Source: Bacteroidales bacterium (lineage in GTDB: Bacteria; Bacteroidota; Bacteroidia; Bacteroidales; UBA932). From it: DNA of 38,687 nt. The translations under genes and the position numbers were made by a program. The number at the start of each line of letters is the position of its first letter. Position 1 is the stretch's first letter. Below are positions 7,494 to 21,725 of this stretch, one piece after another. The notes under the pieces were generated by a model. It was not told the DNA's origin and ran no database searches. It saw only the letters and a program-made list of their open reading frames with translations. The stretch is taken from assembly GCA_016291185.1 (NCBI GenBank), contig JAEFAI010000023.1, forward strand, positions 1 through 38,687, written 5' to 3'.

Positions 7494-8501
7494 ATGGCAA
7501 TCTTAGCATTTCAGAAACCGGACAAGGTGATTATGCTCGAAAGCACCGACACTGTCGGCCGTTTCGAATTCCGGCCGCTTGAGCCGGGCTACGGCCAGAC
7601 GATCGGTAACGCTCTTCGTCGCATCTTGCTGGCCTCCCTGGAGGGGTTTGCTATCAGTCAGATCAAGATCTCCGGTGTGGACCAGGAGTTCCAGACCATC
7701 CCCGGCGTTATCGAGGGGATGCAGGACATCATCCTGAACCTCAAGCAGGTGCGTTTCCGCCGCATGGTCGAGACCGTGGACACTGAGACGGCAAACATCG
7801 TCATCAGCGGCAAGCAGGAGTTTACGGCAGAAGATATCTCCAAAGGATTGTCTTCTTTCATGGTGTTGAATCCCGAATTGCACATCTGCTCGCTCGAGCC
7901 TTCCGTGAAGCTCGAAATCTCCCTCGTCATCACGAAGGGTCGTGGTTTCGTGCCCGCTGAGGAGCTCCGCGACCCGGACACGCCGATCGGAACCATTCCG
8001 GTCGATGCGATCTACACTCCGATCCGCAAGGTCAACTGGAGCGTGGAGAACTGGCGTGTCGAGCAGAAGACGGACTTCGAGAAACTCAATCTTGAGATCG
8101 TGACGGACGGTTCGATTTCCCCGAACGCTGCCCTTCACGAGGCGGCCAACATCCTGATCTACCACTTCAAGCTCTTTACCGACGACAAGAAGATGTCGCT
8201 GGAGAGCACGGTGGAGACCGACAGCAAGGAACTGGACGAGGAGTCGCTGCACATGCGTCACCTCCTCCTGACCAAGCTCTCCGATGTGGGCCTGTCGGTG
8301 CGTGCCTTCAACTGCCTCAAGGCAGCTGAGATCGACACCTTCGCCGACCTCGTGTCCTATTCTCGTCCCGAGCTGATGAAGTTCCGCAACTTCGGTCGGA
8401 AGTCTCTCAACGAAATCGACCTCCTGGTCGAGAAGATGAAGCTTTCGTTCGGAATGGACGTCACCAAGTATAATATTGAACCCAAGAAAAAGACTGTATA
8501 A
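7494..8501 (+). CDS. rpoA: RNA polymerase alpha subunit
   Basis: The alpha dimer nucleates RNA polymerase assembly, and its C-terminal domain contacts DNA and activators. The 335-residue protein has the N-terminal domain with [30 protein letters not shown] (about residues 22-51) and the insert domain. After an acidic linker comes the C-terminal helix-hairpin-helix domain with [21 protein letters not shown] and [15 protein letters not shown]. It lies between rpsD and rplQ. Confidence 0.98.
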
Positions 8502-9083: not shown

Positions 9084-9112
9084 GTCATTCGCCGGCCCTG
9101 ACCGGCGAATCT
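9084..9112 (+). repeat. Dispersed palindrome, family A, copy 1
   Basis: GTCATTC, then GCCGG, a short loop and CCGGCGAATCT. The arms ATTCGCCGG/CCGGCGAAT pair perfectly. It lies between the convergent ends of rplQ and the aroD-aroA gene and overlaps the latter's stop codon. It could end transcription from both sides, but no U-run follows on the rplQ side. See the finding on this repeat family. Confidence 0.85.
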
Positions 9113-11090
9113 AAAGCCTAAATCCAGGGAATGATTTCCCCACGCAAGCCTCATCGTCGATGACGATGGGGCTTTCTGTTCCCAGGGAGGCCACCTGCAG
9201 AGCCATCACCATACGGTGGTCGTGGCGCGAGCTGTATTCGCCGCCCTTGAGCAGGTGCCCTCCGAGCAGCCGGGCGGCGAGGGTCTCGCCCCAGACGACC
9301 AGTTCGTCTCCTTCGATACGGGCTTCCACGCCCATCTGCAGGAGCATCTCGAGGATGGCTTCCGCGCGGTTGGACTCTTTGGTCGTCAGGCGTCCCACGC
9401 CTGCGATGCGGCTTTCGCCGGCGCAGAAGGCGGCGAGCACGGCGATAATGGGAAAGAGGTCGGGCGCATTCGAGAGGTCCTGCTGGAAGGCTTCCAGCGG
9501 GGCTTTTCGTACGCAGACGGTGCCTCCGTCCAACTGCGAGACCACGGCGCCCGCATCCACGAGGATGTCAATGACGCTCAGGTCGGCCTGCAGGGAGGTG
9601 GTGTCCATCCCGACGAGTTCGGCCGAGCCGAAGATGGCGCCGGCCACGAGGAAATTGGCGGCTGCGCTCCAGTCGCCTTCGATGTCGAAGTCGGCTGCGC
9701 GGTAGTGCTGGCGGCCGCGTATCTTGAAGTTGATGCCGGTGCAGCCGGACCAGTCGTCCGCCTCCAGCATTTCGGCGTCGCCCTCCATTTCGCTCCGGGT
9801 CTGGATGCCGAAATGGCGCAGCACGTCGAGGGTGATGTACATGTAGGGAATGCTCTTGGGCTCGCTGACGCGCAGTAGCGACTCCTTGTCACACAGCGGC
9901 AGGGCCATCAGCAGGCCCGAGATGAGCTGCGAGCCGCCCTTGCCGGGGACTTCGGCCGTGCCCGGGATGAGGTGTCCCTTGACGGTGGCGGGGATATAGA
10001 CGTCCTTGCCCTCGCGCTCCTGCTCGTTCGCGAGCAGCACGCCGAAGGCGGCCATGATGTCCGCGGCGCCGCTGAGCGGCCGGCGAAGCAGGGTGCCGCG
10101 ACCGGTCACGGAGAAGCTGCCGTCGCCCACGGCGGCGAGCACCGGGATGGTCAGGCGCGTGAGCAGGCCGGATTCGCCGGTATCCACGCTGCCCGGCTGC
10201 AACTGGCGGCAGCGGGCGCCGATGCCGGTAATGGTGAGCGCCGCGCCGTCCTGCTCGACCTTCGCGCCGAGGGCGCGGGCGAGCGAGAGTGCAGCCTCCG
10301 AGTCGCCGCAGGGGCTGTAGCCTCCCAGGTGCGAGGTGCCTTCGGCGAGCGCCGCGGCGAGGATTGCGCGTTGGGCAAAGCTCTTCGAAGCGGGCATGCG
10401 GCGTCCCTCCACCCGGTAGGGTTTACGGTCGCCGTAGAGCGCGGCGTAGAGTTCCGCGAGCGGCCACTGGCCAGGTGCGGTGGCCTCTTCCGCGCTGAGC
10501 GCGGCAAAGGTGAACGGAGCCCCGCGGCGCAGGCACTGCAGGCGCGTGTCGCGGCCTGCGTCACCCATGCCGAAGGCGACGAGCCGCCCCTGGAGCGAGT
10601 CCACTCCCTCCAGCACGAGGCTATAGAGGGACTCGATGCGGGCGGCGTCCTCCGCCGTGTGGCAGGTGGTCACGACCTTGGCGATGTCGGCGCCATAGCG
10701 GAAGCAACGCGCCAGGGCCATCTGCAGGACTTCCATGTCCGGCGTGCCCTCGAAGTCGTGGAAGGAGCGGATGATTTCCGTGCCGCTCTTGCGGCAGAGC
10801 TGCTGAAAATGCTTGCTCATCTGGGCCGGGGCCTCGATCTCGAGGTCAGCGAAACGGGCGCCCGCCTCGATGGCCACGCGTAGCCGGCGCTCCGCCTCTT
10901 CGGGCGAGGGGCAGCCGTCGATGCGGCAGGTGGCGATGAGCGGGGTGTCGGACTCGCTGAAGAGCTCTTCAATCTGGTCGTCCGACAGGTCGAGGCGGTC
11001 GAGGCGGATCTCCGCCATTTCGACCGTGGGGTCTTCGAGGATCGCGAGAATCTGCTCGAAGGTCTTATGCTGCAGGCTGGTGCAAATCAT
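9111..11090 (-). CDS. aroD/aroA: Fused type I 3-dehydroquinate dehydratase / EPSP synthase
   Basis: A single 659-residue protein carries two shikimate-pathway enzymes. Residues about 1-218 are a type I dehydroquinate dehydratase (step 3): EIRLDRLD, the catalytic His111 in RSFHDFEGTPD, and the Schiff-base Lys138 in ADIAKVVTT, ending APGQWPLAELY. Residues about 224-659 are an EPSP synthase (step 6): PASKSFAQRAILAAALAEG (Lys236), GESGLLTRL, EVPGKGGSQLISGLLMALP, LTTKESNRAEAI and HDHRMVMALQVAS, ending KSFPGFRL. The linker is only about six residues. LTTKESNR has Asn where most EPSP synthases have Asp. The start overlaps the end of aroB by 26 bp, implying coupled translation. The fusion is seen directly; bifunctional activity is inferred. 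Confidence 0.93.
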   Translation of the reverse strand: MICTSLQHKTFEQILAILEDPTVEMAEIRLDRLDLSDDQIEELFSESDTPLIATCRIDGCPSPEEAERRLRVAIEAGARFADLEIEAPAQMSKHFQQLCRKSGTEIIRSFHDFEGTPDMEVLQMALARCFRYGADIAKVVTTCHTAEDAARIESLYSLVLEGVDSLQGRLVAFGMGDAGRDTRLQCLRRGAPFTFAALSAEEATAPGQWPLAELYAALYGDRKPYRVEGRRMPASKSFAQRAILAAALAEGTSHLGGYSPCGDSEAALSLARALGAKVEQDGAALTITGIGARCRQLQPGSVDTGESGLLTRLTIPVLAAVGDGSFSVTGRGTLLRRPLSGAADIMAAFGVLLANEQEREGKDVYIPATVKGHLIPGTAEVPGKGGSQLISGLLMALPLCDKESLLRVSEPKSIPYMYITLDVLRHFGIQTRSEMEGDAEMLEADDWSGCTGINFKIRGRQHYRAADFDIEGDWSAAANFLVAGAIFGSAELVGMDTTSLQADLSVIDILVDAGAVVSQLDGGTVCVRKAPLEAFQQDLSNAPDLFPIIAVLAAFCAGESRIAGVGRLTTKESNRAEAILEMLLQMGVEARIEGDELVVWGETLAARLLGGHLLKGGEYSSRHDHRMVMALQVASLGTESPIVIDDEACVGKSFPGFRL

Positions 11091-19283: not shown

Positions 19284-19303
19284 ACTCTCCTCCCGGGCGC
19301 GGG

Positions 19304-19636
19304 CTACATCTTCGGTTTGCGGACGACGCGGATAATCAGCGAGATGATATAGACGACGGTGCCATAGGCCGCGGGGAGCAGGGCGCAAGGAACGGCACAC
19401 CAGATGATGTACGCGTCTGCGTCGGGGCCGCACGCAGCGACGGCATTCCCCATCTGCATAAACCCGATGAGGGTCCACAGCCACCCGACGGCAAGGCCGG
19501 CGAGGCCGGCTTCCTTCACCCAGGCGGGCGCTTTCCAGGCGACGAAGAAAAGAGCGATCAGGCACAGCGTAACGACGCAGGTTCCGGCGACGTTGGAACT
19601 GAAGAGTTGAAAGATGTTAGAGACAAGCGGTTGCAT
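19304..19636 (-). CDS. Small MotA/TolQ/ExbB-like membrane protein, left arm of the quartet
   Basis: The 110-residue protein has three to four hydrophobic segments. It shares with the protein at 21381-21725 the motif FFVAWKAPAWVKEAGL after the first membrane helix and the ending YGTVVYIISLIIRVVRKPKM. This resembles the short MotA/TolQ/ExbB-type proteins of Bacteroidota, which have WKAPxWVKEIG and end in IYxISLIIRIxQKPRI. It lacks the large cytosolic domain of true ExbB, so a proton-channel role is unproven. It is divergent from a LytTR regulator, with its own strong promoter. Confidence 0.8.
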   Translation of the reverse strand: MQPLVSNIFQLFSSNVAGTCVVTLCLIALFFVAWKAPAWVKEAGLAGLAVGWLWTLIGFMQMGNAVAACGPDADAYIIWCAVPCALLPAAYGTVVYIISLIIRVVRKPKM

Positions 19637-19685
19637 AGCTTTTTGTTTTTTAGTGTTCTACAATTGGGTTCGGAATTCCTTGCTG

Positions 19686-19718
19686 CAAAGGTACGTACGT
19701 TCGACTCAGAAATGCAAA
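19686..19718 (-). promoter_or_regulatory. Promoter of the left-arm small membrane protein
   Basis: On the minus strand: TTTG (complement of 19715-19718), 21-bp spacer and TACCTTTG (complement of 19686-19693). The spacer contains the 8-bp palindrome ACGTACGT. The start codon is about 50 nt downstream. Confidence 0.85.
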
Positions 19719-19818
19719 GCAGAATCCGCACAAACCGGCGTCAAATCCCCCGACATTTCCCTTTCGAGGCGCCCGGGCGCTGCTATTTCGCGGAAGAATG
19801 TGTATTATTGCATTCGGA

Positions 19819-20529
19819 ATGAAGAAAAGAATCATCATCGTCGCCTACTGGCTGGCCGCCATCGCCCTGACGGCTACGCTCCTCGTGAGCCTCGGCTATG
19901 ACCTGGGGCATGCGGTCGCGATGAGCCTGTCCTTCCTGCCCGCCGCCATGGCCCTGTCGTATTTCCTGCCCAAAGTGGACCGGACACGCGGCCGGAAGGA
20001 TCAGGTCCTGGACACCCTGTTCATTATTCTGGGGGTGATGACGATGACCTTCTTCTTCATTTACCTGATGCAGCTCCTCTTTCTGCTGGTCCTCGACCAG
20101 GCCCAGACCGGCTGGGATCTCCCCTCCATGCTCTGGAACCCCGTCTTCGTAGCCTTCATCCTGGCCATCCTCGCCTACGGACACTACCTGCTGGTGAAGT
20201 GGCTGGACAAAAAGTACCCGACCGAGCACCCCGTCACTTTCAATTCCGGCTACAAGAAGGTTTCTCTAAAGAAAGAAGACATCCTCTATATCGAATCGCG
20301 CGACGCCGAAGTCTGGATCTTTGCGCGGGACGGCCAGCAGTACCGCAATCGGACCGGCATCAGCCAGTGGGAAGATGTGCTCGGCCCGGAGTTCGTGCGG
20401 ATCCATCGCGCGTTCCTCGTCAACCGCTCGGACATGAAGGTGCTGTCTTCTGAGTCCGTCAGCGTGGCCGGCCAGGAGCTGCCAGTCTCCCGGAAATACA
20501 AGGAATCCGTCCAGCAGATCTACGAGTAA
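19819..20529 (+). CDS. Membrane-anchored LytTR transcription regulator, left arm
   Basis: The 236-residue protein has four predicted membrane helices (about residues 4-24, 30-50, 66-93 and 108-130). A C-terminal LytTR DNA-binding domain follows (about 140-236): KVSLKKEDILYIESRDAEVWIF, RNRTGISQWEDVL, FVRIHRAFLVNRSDM and LPVSRKYKESVQ. There is no receiver domain, so it is not an ordinary response regulator. The start ATG 19819 follows a near-consensus box TATTATTG by 8 nt. It overlaps its paralog at 20520-21224 tail to tail by 10 bp. DNA target and signal are unknown. Confidence 0.93.
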   Translation: MKKRIIIVAYWLAAIALTATLLVSLGYDLGHAVAMSLSFLPAAMALSYFLPKVDRTRGRKDQVLDTLFIILGVMTMTFFFIYLMQLLFLLVLDQAQTGWDLPSMLWNPVFVAFILAILAYGHYLLVKWLDKKYPTEHPVTFNSGYKKVSLKKEDILYIESRDAEVWIFARDGQQYRNRTGISQWEDVLGPEFVRIHRAFLVNRSDMKVLSSESVSVAGQELPVSRKYKESVQQIYE

Positions 20530-21224
20530 AACCCCTGCACCGTCTCGCGGTATTTCCGGGAGATGGGAAGCTGGGTGTCGCCCACATAGAGAATATCCAC
20601 GTCCACGCCGCTCACCGCCGTCTTGTTCACGAGGTAGGAGCGGTGGATGCGGATGAAATGGGGCTTGAGGATGGCTTCCCAGCGGGAAATGGGGGTGATG
20701 TTCCGGAAGCTCCGGCCACCGGTCGCATAGACGACGGTGGCGTCGTCGTTGGACTCCACGTAAAGAATTTCCTCGATCTGAAGGGTCACCGATTTGCGCC
20801 CGGAGGTGAAGGTGATGGGCGCGGGCGCCGTAGGATGCAGCTGATCCAACCAGCGCTCGAAGAAGTAGCTGCCCGCCGCCAGCACGGTCAGGATGAAGGC
20901 TATGAAGACGGGATTCGTCAGGATCTGGGGGATATCGGTCATCATCTGCTCTTCGCGCAGGTGCATGATGTAGAAGTGGGTGACCAGGAACAGCAGCATC
21001 TCGGCGACCAGGATCCCGCAGACGATGAAGATGGCGTTCTTGATGCCCGTCCGCCGGTTCTTGAAATCGACCTTCGGGAAAAAGTATTTGGCCGCGAGAG
21101 CGCCCGGCAGGAACATCGTGCCGCAGAACATGGCTTCCAGGAAGCGGTACCCCAGGCTGGTGAGGACAATGGACACCAGCAGGACGGAAACCACCCAATA
21201 AGATATGACCAGGAGCCGTTTCAT
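20520..21224 (-). CDS. Membrane-anchored LytTR transcription regulator, right arm
   Basis: A paralog of the gene at 19819-20529. The 234-residue product has the same layout: four membrane helices, then a LytTR domain (SVTLQIEEILYVESNDDATVVY, RNITPISRWEAIL, FIRIHRSYLVNKTAV, LPISRKYRETVQGFY). Shared residues run through the membrane part too (LGYRF.., FLPGALAAKYFFPKVD, NPVFIAFIL). The start ATG is at 21224; a longer upstream frame covers its own promoter region. The -7 box TACATTTG (minus strand, 21233-21240) ends 8 nt before the ATG, so the mRNA is probably leaderless. Confidence 0.93.
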   Translation of the reverse strand: MKRLLVISYWVVSVLLVSIVLTSLGYRFLEAMFCGTMFLPGALAAKYFFPKVDFKNRRTGIKNAIFIVCGILVAEMLLFLVTHFYIMHLREEQMMTDIPQILTNPVFIAFILTVLAAGSYFFERWLDQLHPTAPAPITFTSGRKSVTLQIEEILYVESNDDATVVYATGGRSFRNITPISRWEAILKPHFIRIHRSYLVNKTAVSGVDVDILYVGDTQLPISRKYRETVQGFYS

Positions 21225-21232
21225 TGCTGGAA

Positions 21233-21240
21233 CAAATGTA
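21233..21240 (-). promoter_or_regulatory. -7 box of the right-arm LytTR gene
   Basis: CAAATGTA on the plus strand, that is TACATTTG on the minus strand, an exact TAnnTTTG match 8 nt before the start codon. No TTTG lies at the usual distance upstream, so activation by a regulator is conceivable. Confidence 0.65.
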
Positions 21241-21313
21241 ATAAAAAACCTGTTCCCCGGTTCCGGCAAAAAGGCAAATTGGGGATTAAACGCCGCTGTT
21301 CGGGGTTTCGGCT

Positions 21314-21343
21314 TGGGGGAGATGCCGCCTTCCGCTACTTTTG
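21314..21343 (+). promoter_or_regulatory. Promoter of the right-arm small membrane protein
   Basis: TTG (21314-21316), 19-bp spacer and TACTTTTG (21336-21343), matching the Bacteroidetes consensus. It gives a leader of about 30 nt to ATG 21381. Confidence 0.8.
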
Positions 21344-21380
21344 CTCCAGAAAGTTTAACCCACAAAAACCTTTTTGCCTT

Positions 21381-21725
21381 ATGTTAGTTTTTTTTGTCCA
21401 AGGAGGTCTCGCATTCATGTCGATCCTCACCGTCCTGCTGGTCGCTATTTTCTTCGCTGCCTGGAAGGCTCCCCGCTGGGTGAAGGAGATCGGACTGTTC
21501 GCCCTTATGTTCGGATTCCTGGGGACGGTTCTGGGCCTCTTGCAGGTGCTTGACGTATTAGGAGAGTATGCTTCCCAGGGAGAGGGGCCGCTCGGCCTGT
21601 TCGACGTGGTCCCGATCGGCGTCATCTGCGGCGGGTTGAAGGTCACCCTCAATACCACTATTTACGGTATCGGCATTTACCTCGTTTCGCTCATCGTTCG
21701 CATCGTCCAGAAGCCGAGGTTATAG
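21381..21725 (+). CDS. Small MotA/TolQ/ExbB-like membrane protein, right arm of the quartet
   Basis: The 114-residue protein resembles short MotA/TolQ/ExbB-type membrane proteins: FFVQGGLAFMSILTVLLVAIFFAAWKAPRWVKEIGLF, a second helix pair with FGFLGTVLGLLQVL, GVICGGLKVTLNTTIYG and an ending IYLVSLIVRIVQKPRL. It is paralogous to the left-arm protein (AWKAPxWVKE and the last 20 residues). ATG 21381 is preferred because the QGGLAFMS stretch is family-like. ATG 21417 has AAGGAGG 10 nt upstream, but that purine run also encodes the Gln-Gly-Gly. It is divergent from the right-arm LytTR gene. Confidence 0.82.
   Translation: MLVFFVQGGLAFMSILTVLLVAIFFAAWKAPRWVKEIGLFALMFGFLGTVLGLLQVLDVLGEYASQGEGPLGLFDVVPIGVICGGLKVTLNTTIYGIGIYLVSLIVRIVQKPRL

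Follow-up and report, generated by a model that had tools for sequence, protein, structure and literature searches.

The LytTR Regulatory Systems (LRS) of streptococci, HdrRM and BrsRM, combine a regulator carrying a LytTR DNA-binding domain with a membrane protein, and their operators are direct repeats, spaced by 11–13 bp and placed immediately upstream of the promoter, as set out in those parts of Zou et al. (2018; PMC6193735) that deal with operators. The passages of that paper on Bacteroides describe LRS-like operons in which the LytTR regulator has several transmembrane (TM) segments and the partners are NfeD or DUF2154 proteins. Here we analyse four genes in a 38,687-nt stretch of DNA from a Bacteroidales bacterium (contig JAEFAI010000023.1, assembly GCA_016291185.1; hereafter the window): two genes encoding membrane-anchored LytTR proteins (LytA and LytB), which meet tail to tail, and two encoding small membrane proteins (sm1 and sm2), each divergent from one of them. 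On sequence comparison and structure prediction, we somewhat favour the view that the window holds two copies, from separate clades, of one divergent module, in which a membrane LytTR sensor would have a short ExbB-like protein (mini-ExbB) as its feedback partner.

The locus resembles LRS in having a LytTR regulator beside a membrane protein and putative operators of the same layout, and resembles the Bacteroides regulators in its several TM segments, judging from the portions of PMC6193735 cited above. It differs in that the partner is a mini-ExbB rather than HdrM or a DUF2154 protein, and in that the genes are divergent rather than in one operon. Moreover, the LRS regulator is soluble and has a membrane inhibitor encoded in the same operon, whereas the regulator here has a four-helix membrane domain of its own. 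The analogy with streptococcal LRS drawn in the original prediction therefore holds for operator layout and fails for protein architecture. Neither "ExbB" nor "divergent" appears in the main text of Zou et al. (PMC6193735).

A second comparison is with LytS/BtsS-type histidine kinases and their LytTR regulators. Kinases encoded beside mini-ExbB genes share a homologous membrane domain with LytA and LytB; this was established against those kinases rather than LytS or BtsS themselves. LytA and LytB differ in lacking the kinase and receiver domains that are present at the related loci L258, L265 and L288. By sequence, these LytS-like kinase/LytTR systems are nearer relatives than LRS: their sensor domain is homologous and their small partner is the same. 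In transmembrane transcription regulators (TTRs), as presented in the sections of the TTR paper used for comparison, the DNA-binding domain is likewise anchored in the inner membrane; that paper's main text contains neither "ExbB" nor "proton channel". On these comparisons the module is distinct from a strict LRS and from an ordinary ExbB system; it resembles an LRS at the promoter and a LytS-type sensor at the membrane. Searches of an open-access library turned up no published account of a mini-ExbB/membrane-LytTR pairing.

Genes and proteins of the locus

Analysis of open reading frames (ORFs) in the window confirmed the predicted order, strands and interval (19304–21725) of the four genes: sm1(−), LytA(+), LytB(−) and sm2(+). 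We denote sm1–LytA and LytB–sm2 the A-type and B-type pairs, respectively.

19304..19636, minus strand: sm1, 110 amino acids (aa), mini-ExbB (MotA/TolQ/ExbB-like) without a cytoplasmic domain, partner of LytA; assigned by its ORF, 36% identity to sm2 and grouping with A-type pairs
19822..20529, plus strand: LytA, 235 aa, four-helix membrane domain and LytTR DNA-binding domain; assigned by Pfam LytTR (3.8e-13), AlphaFold2 and Foldseek (LytTR/AgrA)
20520..21224, minus strand: LytB, 234 aa, four-helix membrane domain and LytTR domain, a LytA paralogue from another clade; assigned by Pfam LytTR (8.1e-15)
21381..21725, plus strand: sm2, 114 aa, mini-ExbB with three long helices, partner of LytB; assigned by PF01618 (2.9e-6), AlphaFold2 and Foldseek

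The LytA start was refined to 19822, a previously listed start at 19798 lying 8 codons upstream. An internal ATG at 21417 of sm2 would give a 102-aa form, as in its closest relatives.

LytA and LytB share 40% identity across 235 residues and both contain a LytTR domain above the Pfam cut-off, in line with the paralogy over their whole length that had been predicted. A Pfam scan detected neither a histidine kinase nor a receiver domain in either protein. The AlphaFold2 model of LytA (mean pLDDT, the predicted local distance difference test, 88) comprises four long N-terminal helices followed by a LytTR fold, and Foldseek matched it to the LytTR domains of 3d6w, ComE and AgrA. The model is of LytA, and the four helices of LytB are assigned by homology. 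A mobile element or virus origin was also considered and rejected: a close-match scan of viral contigs gave no relative of LytB, and LytA had one weak plasmid match, confined to the LytTR domain.

The paralogy of the two small proteins was likewise borne out (36% identity across 108 columns), with a small inaccuracy in the ending said to be common to both, xIYxxSLIxRxVxKPxx: sm1 reads VVYIISLI. Their predicted MotA/ExbB likeness stands directly for sm2, which passes the Pfam MotA_ExbB (PF01618) cut-off (27.5 versus 22.9 bits). Since sm1 has no MotA_ExbB match in the Pfam scan, it is ExbB-like solely through its homology to sm2. Among 16 diverse small proteins of the family, 10 match MotA_ExbB at E 0.01 or better (best 5.4e-14). 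The AlphaFold2 model of sm2 (mean pLDDT 75) shows three long helices and lacks a cytoplasmic domain. In a Foldseek search with it, 49 of the 50 rows shown were ExbBD, TolQR, MotAB/PomAB or ZorAB chains, each non-significant alone (best E 0.15); a profile search of PDB sequences was weak, its best match being TolQ at E 0.0075.

These proteins depart from MotA/TolQ/ExbB stators in several respects. ExbB has a large cytoplasmic domain between TM1 and TM2; most mini-ExbB proteins are shorter (roughly 105–120 aa), with about 10 residues and no large domain at this position. In none of 16 genomes does an ExbD gene lie less than 30 kb from the mini-ExbB gene on its contig, in a search that covered ExbD and was limited by contig ends in fragmented genomes. 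All 16 genomes have ExbD genes elsewhere, the nearest being more than 30 kb away on the contig of the mini-ExbB. Because no ExbD gene lies within that distance, mini-ExbB is unlikely to be an ordinary stator component.

The divergent pair is the recurrent unit

Of 287 relatives confirmed in a scan of genome contigs with a LytTR alignment, we analysed the best 80 loci, together with whole-genome loci and the window. A mini-ExbB gene lies divergently within 900 bp of 83 of the 94 distinct membrane-LytTR genes, which supports the proposed two-gene module and shows that it recurs in other genomes. Four of the 11 unpaired genes are at a contig end (L002, the first copy at L009, L037 and L070), four have one intervening gene (the second copy at L009, L041, L048 and L068), one (L065) is accompanied by two small genes of the same orientation, and two (L064 and L113) have no small gene within the stretch examined. 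Pairs are present in named Flavobacteriia and Cytophagia, namely Tamlana, Aestuariibaculum, Reichenbachiella and Ekhidna. In a phylum-wide sample of 198 genomes, searched with the regulator and the small protein independently, all five regulator matches of at least 100 bits adjoin a mini-ExbB gene, among the matches listed. By gene order, then, the unit is the divergent pair and not the quartet.

The histories of the two families were compared in quick, unrooted trees drawn with midpoint roots; among the membrane-LytTR sequences, duplicates and those with a profile score below 100 were removed beforehand, and two short rows were kept out of the tree. Across the 83 pairs the two families are congruent overall (Mantel Spearman 0.55; 0 of 2,000 permutations as high), consistent with a shared history. 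sm1 clusters with the small proteins of A-type pairs (support 93; starred together with its two nearest), and sm2 with those of L012, L013, L040, L010 and L011 (85, not starred). At seven loci (L027, L032, L042, L046, L049, L055 and L060), one regulator stands with a tandem doublet of diverged mini-ExbB genes.

Putative operators at the small-gene promoters

The intergenic regions of the window contain a promoter for each small gene, as predicted, and next to each promoter a candidate operator.

19686..19693, minus strand: sm1 promoter, −7 box TAnnTTTG (TACCTTTG)
19722..19748, minus strand: A-type putative LytTR operator GGATTTGAC-N12-GGATTC, a direct repeat with a 21-bp period that abuts the sm1 −33 region
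21283..21309, plus strand: B-type putative LytTR operator GGATTAAAC-N12-GGTTTC, with a 21-bp period, abutting the sm2 −33 region
21336..21343, plus strand: sm2 promoter, −7 box TAnnTTTG (TACTTTTG)

We examined 76 divergent intergenic regions, from the first 80 loci and the window. The Bacteroidota −7 box TAnnTTTG occurs in 69 of the 76 (6.8 expected). Directly upstream of the small gene's −33 region is a GGWTTY-type direct repeat with a period of 21 bp; its strict form is found in 47 of the 76 (0.01 expected; one on the reverse strand), or in 45 of 74 once L030, counted twice, and L066, a repeat of L014, are reduced to single entries. A relaxed form is found in 53 (0.33 expected); the B-type putative operator of the window misses the strict pattern by one base. 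Within the whole 38.7-kb window, repeat and promoter coincide only twice, at 19748(−) and 21283(+), both in the intergenic regions of the quartet. Because the repeat abuts the promoter of the small gene, recurrently among relatives and specifically within the window, the LytTR regulator likely controls the divergent small gene directly, which makes the predicted control probable. The A-type and B-type repeats differ in detail, a difference that suggests that the two modules may be insulated from each other. In pairs of the L027 type, the repeats are about 32 bp apart, not 21.

The position of the repeats also speaks for a strict LRS, in which the small protein would be an HdrM/BrsM-like inhibitor within a LytTR Regulatory System that exerts positive feedback on its own operon. 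The operator-related text of Zou et al. (PMC6193735) places direct repeats just upstream of the promoter, and its Bacteroides portion reports multi-TM LytTR regulators in LRS-like operons. However, the regulator here is embedded in the membrane, the genes are divergent rather than in one operon and the partner belongs to a different family; moreover, the repeat faces the small gene, so that activation would raise the level of an inhibitor and presumably produce a negative loop. We regard a strict LRS as improbable.

A shared membrane domain in histidine kinases

A broader alignment of the small proteins was searched against 395 Bacteroidota genomes. The cut for mini-ExbB was set after the list had been seen; scores are continuous across it (69.5, then 68.3 bits), and the break is in ORF length and whole-profile coverage. 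Among the matches listed, there are 33 mini-ExbB genes in 32 of the genomes. Sixteen are divergent from a protein with four TM helices (4TM) and a LytTR domain, a count that includes G640, a partial reading frame without the LytTR part, and 15 are divergent from a 4TM histidine kinase. At 13 of these 15 loci a LytTR regulator gene was detected; G659 and G793 have the kinase with no regulator gene detected, and in G624 an amidase gene lies between mini-ExbB and kinase.

One further mini-ExbB is a second copy, in G551, downstream of the first in the same operon. At this locus (L265:3689-6863) a MacB/FtsX-type permease gene is flanked by the two mini-ExbB genes, all co-directional and divergent from the kinase/LytTR pair. 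The sole listed mini-ExbB without a tie to LytTR or kinase is that of G471 (L266:3343-4858). It adjoins a 257-aa protein without a Pfam match, followed by a PadR regulator, an arrangement that recalls the HAAS-PadR of envelope-stress neighbourhoods in the relevant part of PMC11237479.

Each of the five kinases submitted to Pfam (L258, L262, L263, L265 and L288) shows His_kinase and no named membrane sensor domain, and each of the three regulators submitted (L258, L265 and L288) shows Response_reg plus LytTR. The other kinases and regulators were identified with our own profiles (a LytTR profile for the regulators) or, at L263, by reading the frame. In hhalign comparisons, whose E-values refer to single comparisons, the membrane part of the kinases matches that of an intermediate 4TM-LytTR family with 99.8% probability (3e-28) and that of the window's family with 94.5% (8e-8); the intermediate and window LytTR families match over their full length. 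On these profile comparisons, the 4TM parts of the kinases and the 4TM-LytTR proteins are homologous.

Kinase and LytTR forms are mixed in a tree of 36 4TM domains, which needs four changes of state, three of them forced by starred branches. Without four long rows, three changes are needed and two are forced, and a single kinase clade is rejected by the approximately unbiased (AU) test (p 0.003, for a group named after the tree had been seen). Both forms also occupy the same genomic site: beside typA, a kinase and regulator are found in two genomes (L263 and L288) and a joined 4TM-LytTR protein in three (L281, L284 and L286). The tree is unrooted; we suggest that the kinase form came first.

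What the small protein may do

Across the kinase and kinase-less forms, gene neighbourhoods indicate that mini-ExbB is the constant partner, staying with the 4TM domain. Distances among the small proteins track the 4TM part more closely than the LytTR part (partial correlations 0.46 versus 0.18; bootstrap difference 0.16–0.40).

We propose the following mechanism. The 4TM domain would sense a membrane signal, whereupon LytTR would bind the repeats and activate the mini-ExbB gene; in some genomes the activated LytTR protein might also switch on a few envelope genes. Mini-ExbB would then join the four-helix domain in the membrane and set or reset its activity, as feedback of either sign. The kinase-less form may have arisen more than once, when the sensor domain of a kinase became joined to LytTR and the kinase and receiver were lost.

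The main rival reading is that mini-ExbB is an output. As such, it would be a dedicated effector, for example altering ion leak or joining ExbBD or TolQR stators, and the regulator would sense its signal without it, as BtsSR controls btsT as its single target. Throughout, the probable target is the small gene, the part of PMC5936718 on BtsSR and btsT offers a precedent for a LytS/LytTR system with a single membrane target, and the ExbD genes located elsewhere in 16 of 16 genomes could supply components for mini-ExbB to join. Less easily explained are the linkage of 32 of the 33 listed mini-ExbB genes across both kinase and kinase-less forms, the congruence of the trees and the closer covariation with the 4TM part; with no ExbD nearby and no cytoplasmic domain, ion flow as the sole function also seems doubtful. 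We consider a pure output role a serious possibility, short of probable.

The feedback-partner reading, which we continue to prefer, has its own difficulties, and these weigh against it. The same synteny and operator would be expected if the small gene were a dedicated output next to its regulator, and the distance test may simply reflect the greater length and faster evolution of the 4TM part. The small proteins of B-type pairs form three clades, not one. The strict repeat is absent from 29 of the 76 intergenic regions, a set with the redundancy given above, and outside Bacteroidales the second half-site is found in 5 of 14 one-component intergenic regions (0.18 expected) and 3 of 14 kinase-type ones (0.1 expected). 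At 94.5%, the link between the kinases and the window's own family is of moderate strength; it depends on membrane helices and runs through the intermediate proteins, and the group in the AU test was chosen with the tree in view.

A bolder version of the feedback-partner reading, which we put forward tentatively and think unlikely, is that a family of membrane sensors has mini-ExbB as its conserved third subunit. Here a cut-down stator fold would report ion-motive force or membrane state to the four-helix domain, and the core would repeatedly have exchanged the phosphorelay for an attached DNA-binding domain while keeping the stator-like subunit.

The analysis connects an unexplained family of small ExbB-like proteins with a specific sensor domain across Bacteroidota, and yields a predicted operator and a few further predicted targets: an outer-membrane barrel, TlpA-like proteins, a CarboxypepD_reg protein and an ABC transporter. 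The site beside typA, where the sensor occurs in both kinase and kinase-less form, would allow direct study of how a phosphorelay is lost or gained. If the small protein does sense ion-motive force, it would represent a route from stator-type proteins to transcription.

Origin of the mirrored arrangement

The mirror symmetry of the quartet had been attributed to inverted duplication of one pair, with possible antisense coupling across the overlapping 3′ ends of the LytTR genes. The overlap itself was confirmed, and the same block is found in a close relative, G330, whose neighbouring proteins are 86–99% identical.

20520..20529, no strand: 10-bp 3′ overlap of LytA and LytB, defined by the ORF ends; the inverted G330 cassette has an overlap of equal length
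19294..21725, no strand: whole cassette; in G330, one inverted block between the same flanking genes (BLASTN and synteny)

Mirror order and the paralogy of both gene families would fit a duplication. In the membrane-LytTR tree, however, LytA falls among 15 rows that form one clade (support 93), with 12 of these rows starred, and LytB in a starred clade of 17 rows in the opposite half of the midpoint-rooted tree, each type also occurring elsewhere without the other adjacent. The related genomes G007 and G017 carry A-type and B-type modules on different contigs. On the tree and on the separate contigs in these relatives, we reject a local inverted duplication in place. The overlap is retained in G330, as antisense coupling would have it, but there is no sign that it acts. 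Duplication in place with antisense coupling is accordingly very unlikely.

A membrane LytTR gene is found in 113 of 400 genomes of the genus, among the matches listed, and among these a convergent, abutting A+B quartet occurs elsewhere in G330 only. In G008, an A-type gene truncated where the contig ends is convergent with a LytTR gene of another clade.

BLASTN aligns window 19294–21725 to the reverse of the G330 sequence over 2,436 columns at 90.1% identity. Opposite orientation between the same flanks might indicate an invertible, phase-variable segment. A search for inverted repeats at the cassette ends found none, and we rejected an invertible switch on this ground; in addition, the promoter of each small gene lies inside the block, so that inversion switches nothing obvious, and the comparison covers two genomes. 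Phase variation therefore seems extremely improbable. Because of the separate clades, the separate contigs in relatives and the block inversion in G330, the mirror is best read as the juxtaposition of two separate modules, an arrangement shared by two related genomes, one of which has it inverted as a single block.

In G330, an S41 peptidase gene (L150:7409-8329) lies between a dicarboxylate symporter gene and the inverted quartet; it is absent from this position in the window. A protein that resembles this peptidase by eye is encoded at 8064–8966 of L015, beside a TlpA-like gene with a putative operator.

Other putative targets and neighbouring genes

The repeat and −7 box, at the same gap, also precede an outer-membrane barrel gene in G330, and G014 has a similar gene. 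These genes (L187:2067-4982 in G330; L195, near 5941, in G014) encode proteins of 972/973 aa and carry the putative operator and promoter; the G330 protein is an outer-membrane barrel with a CarboxypepD_reg domain, and the G014 gene lies about 3.5 kb from a B-type pair. The same combination is found before the gene of a CarboxypepD_reg protein (G043), before DUF4369 or TlpA-like genes (G285 and L015) and, at a distance of 283 bp, before an ABC transporter gene (G013). With the exception of the G014 gene, these off-pair putative targets were scanned with Pfam.

Genes between regulator and mini-ExbB encode a TlpA-like protein in L041 and L068, a 688-aa protein without a Pfam match in L048 and a 6-bladed propeller in L119; Pfam was run for L041, L048 and L119. 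Loose operator matches number 91, pair sites included, in 24 genomes with the regulator, where a backward control pattern gives 14. In 24 genomes of the genus without it they number 32, with a promoter at 24–30 bases in 0 of the 30 examined. Part of the loose matches away from pairs were inspected, and most of them look like chance.

Elsewhere in the window, at 9111–11090 on the minus strand, a single reading frame joins 3-dehydroquinase I and EPSP synthase domains in an aro fusion.

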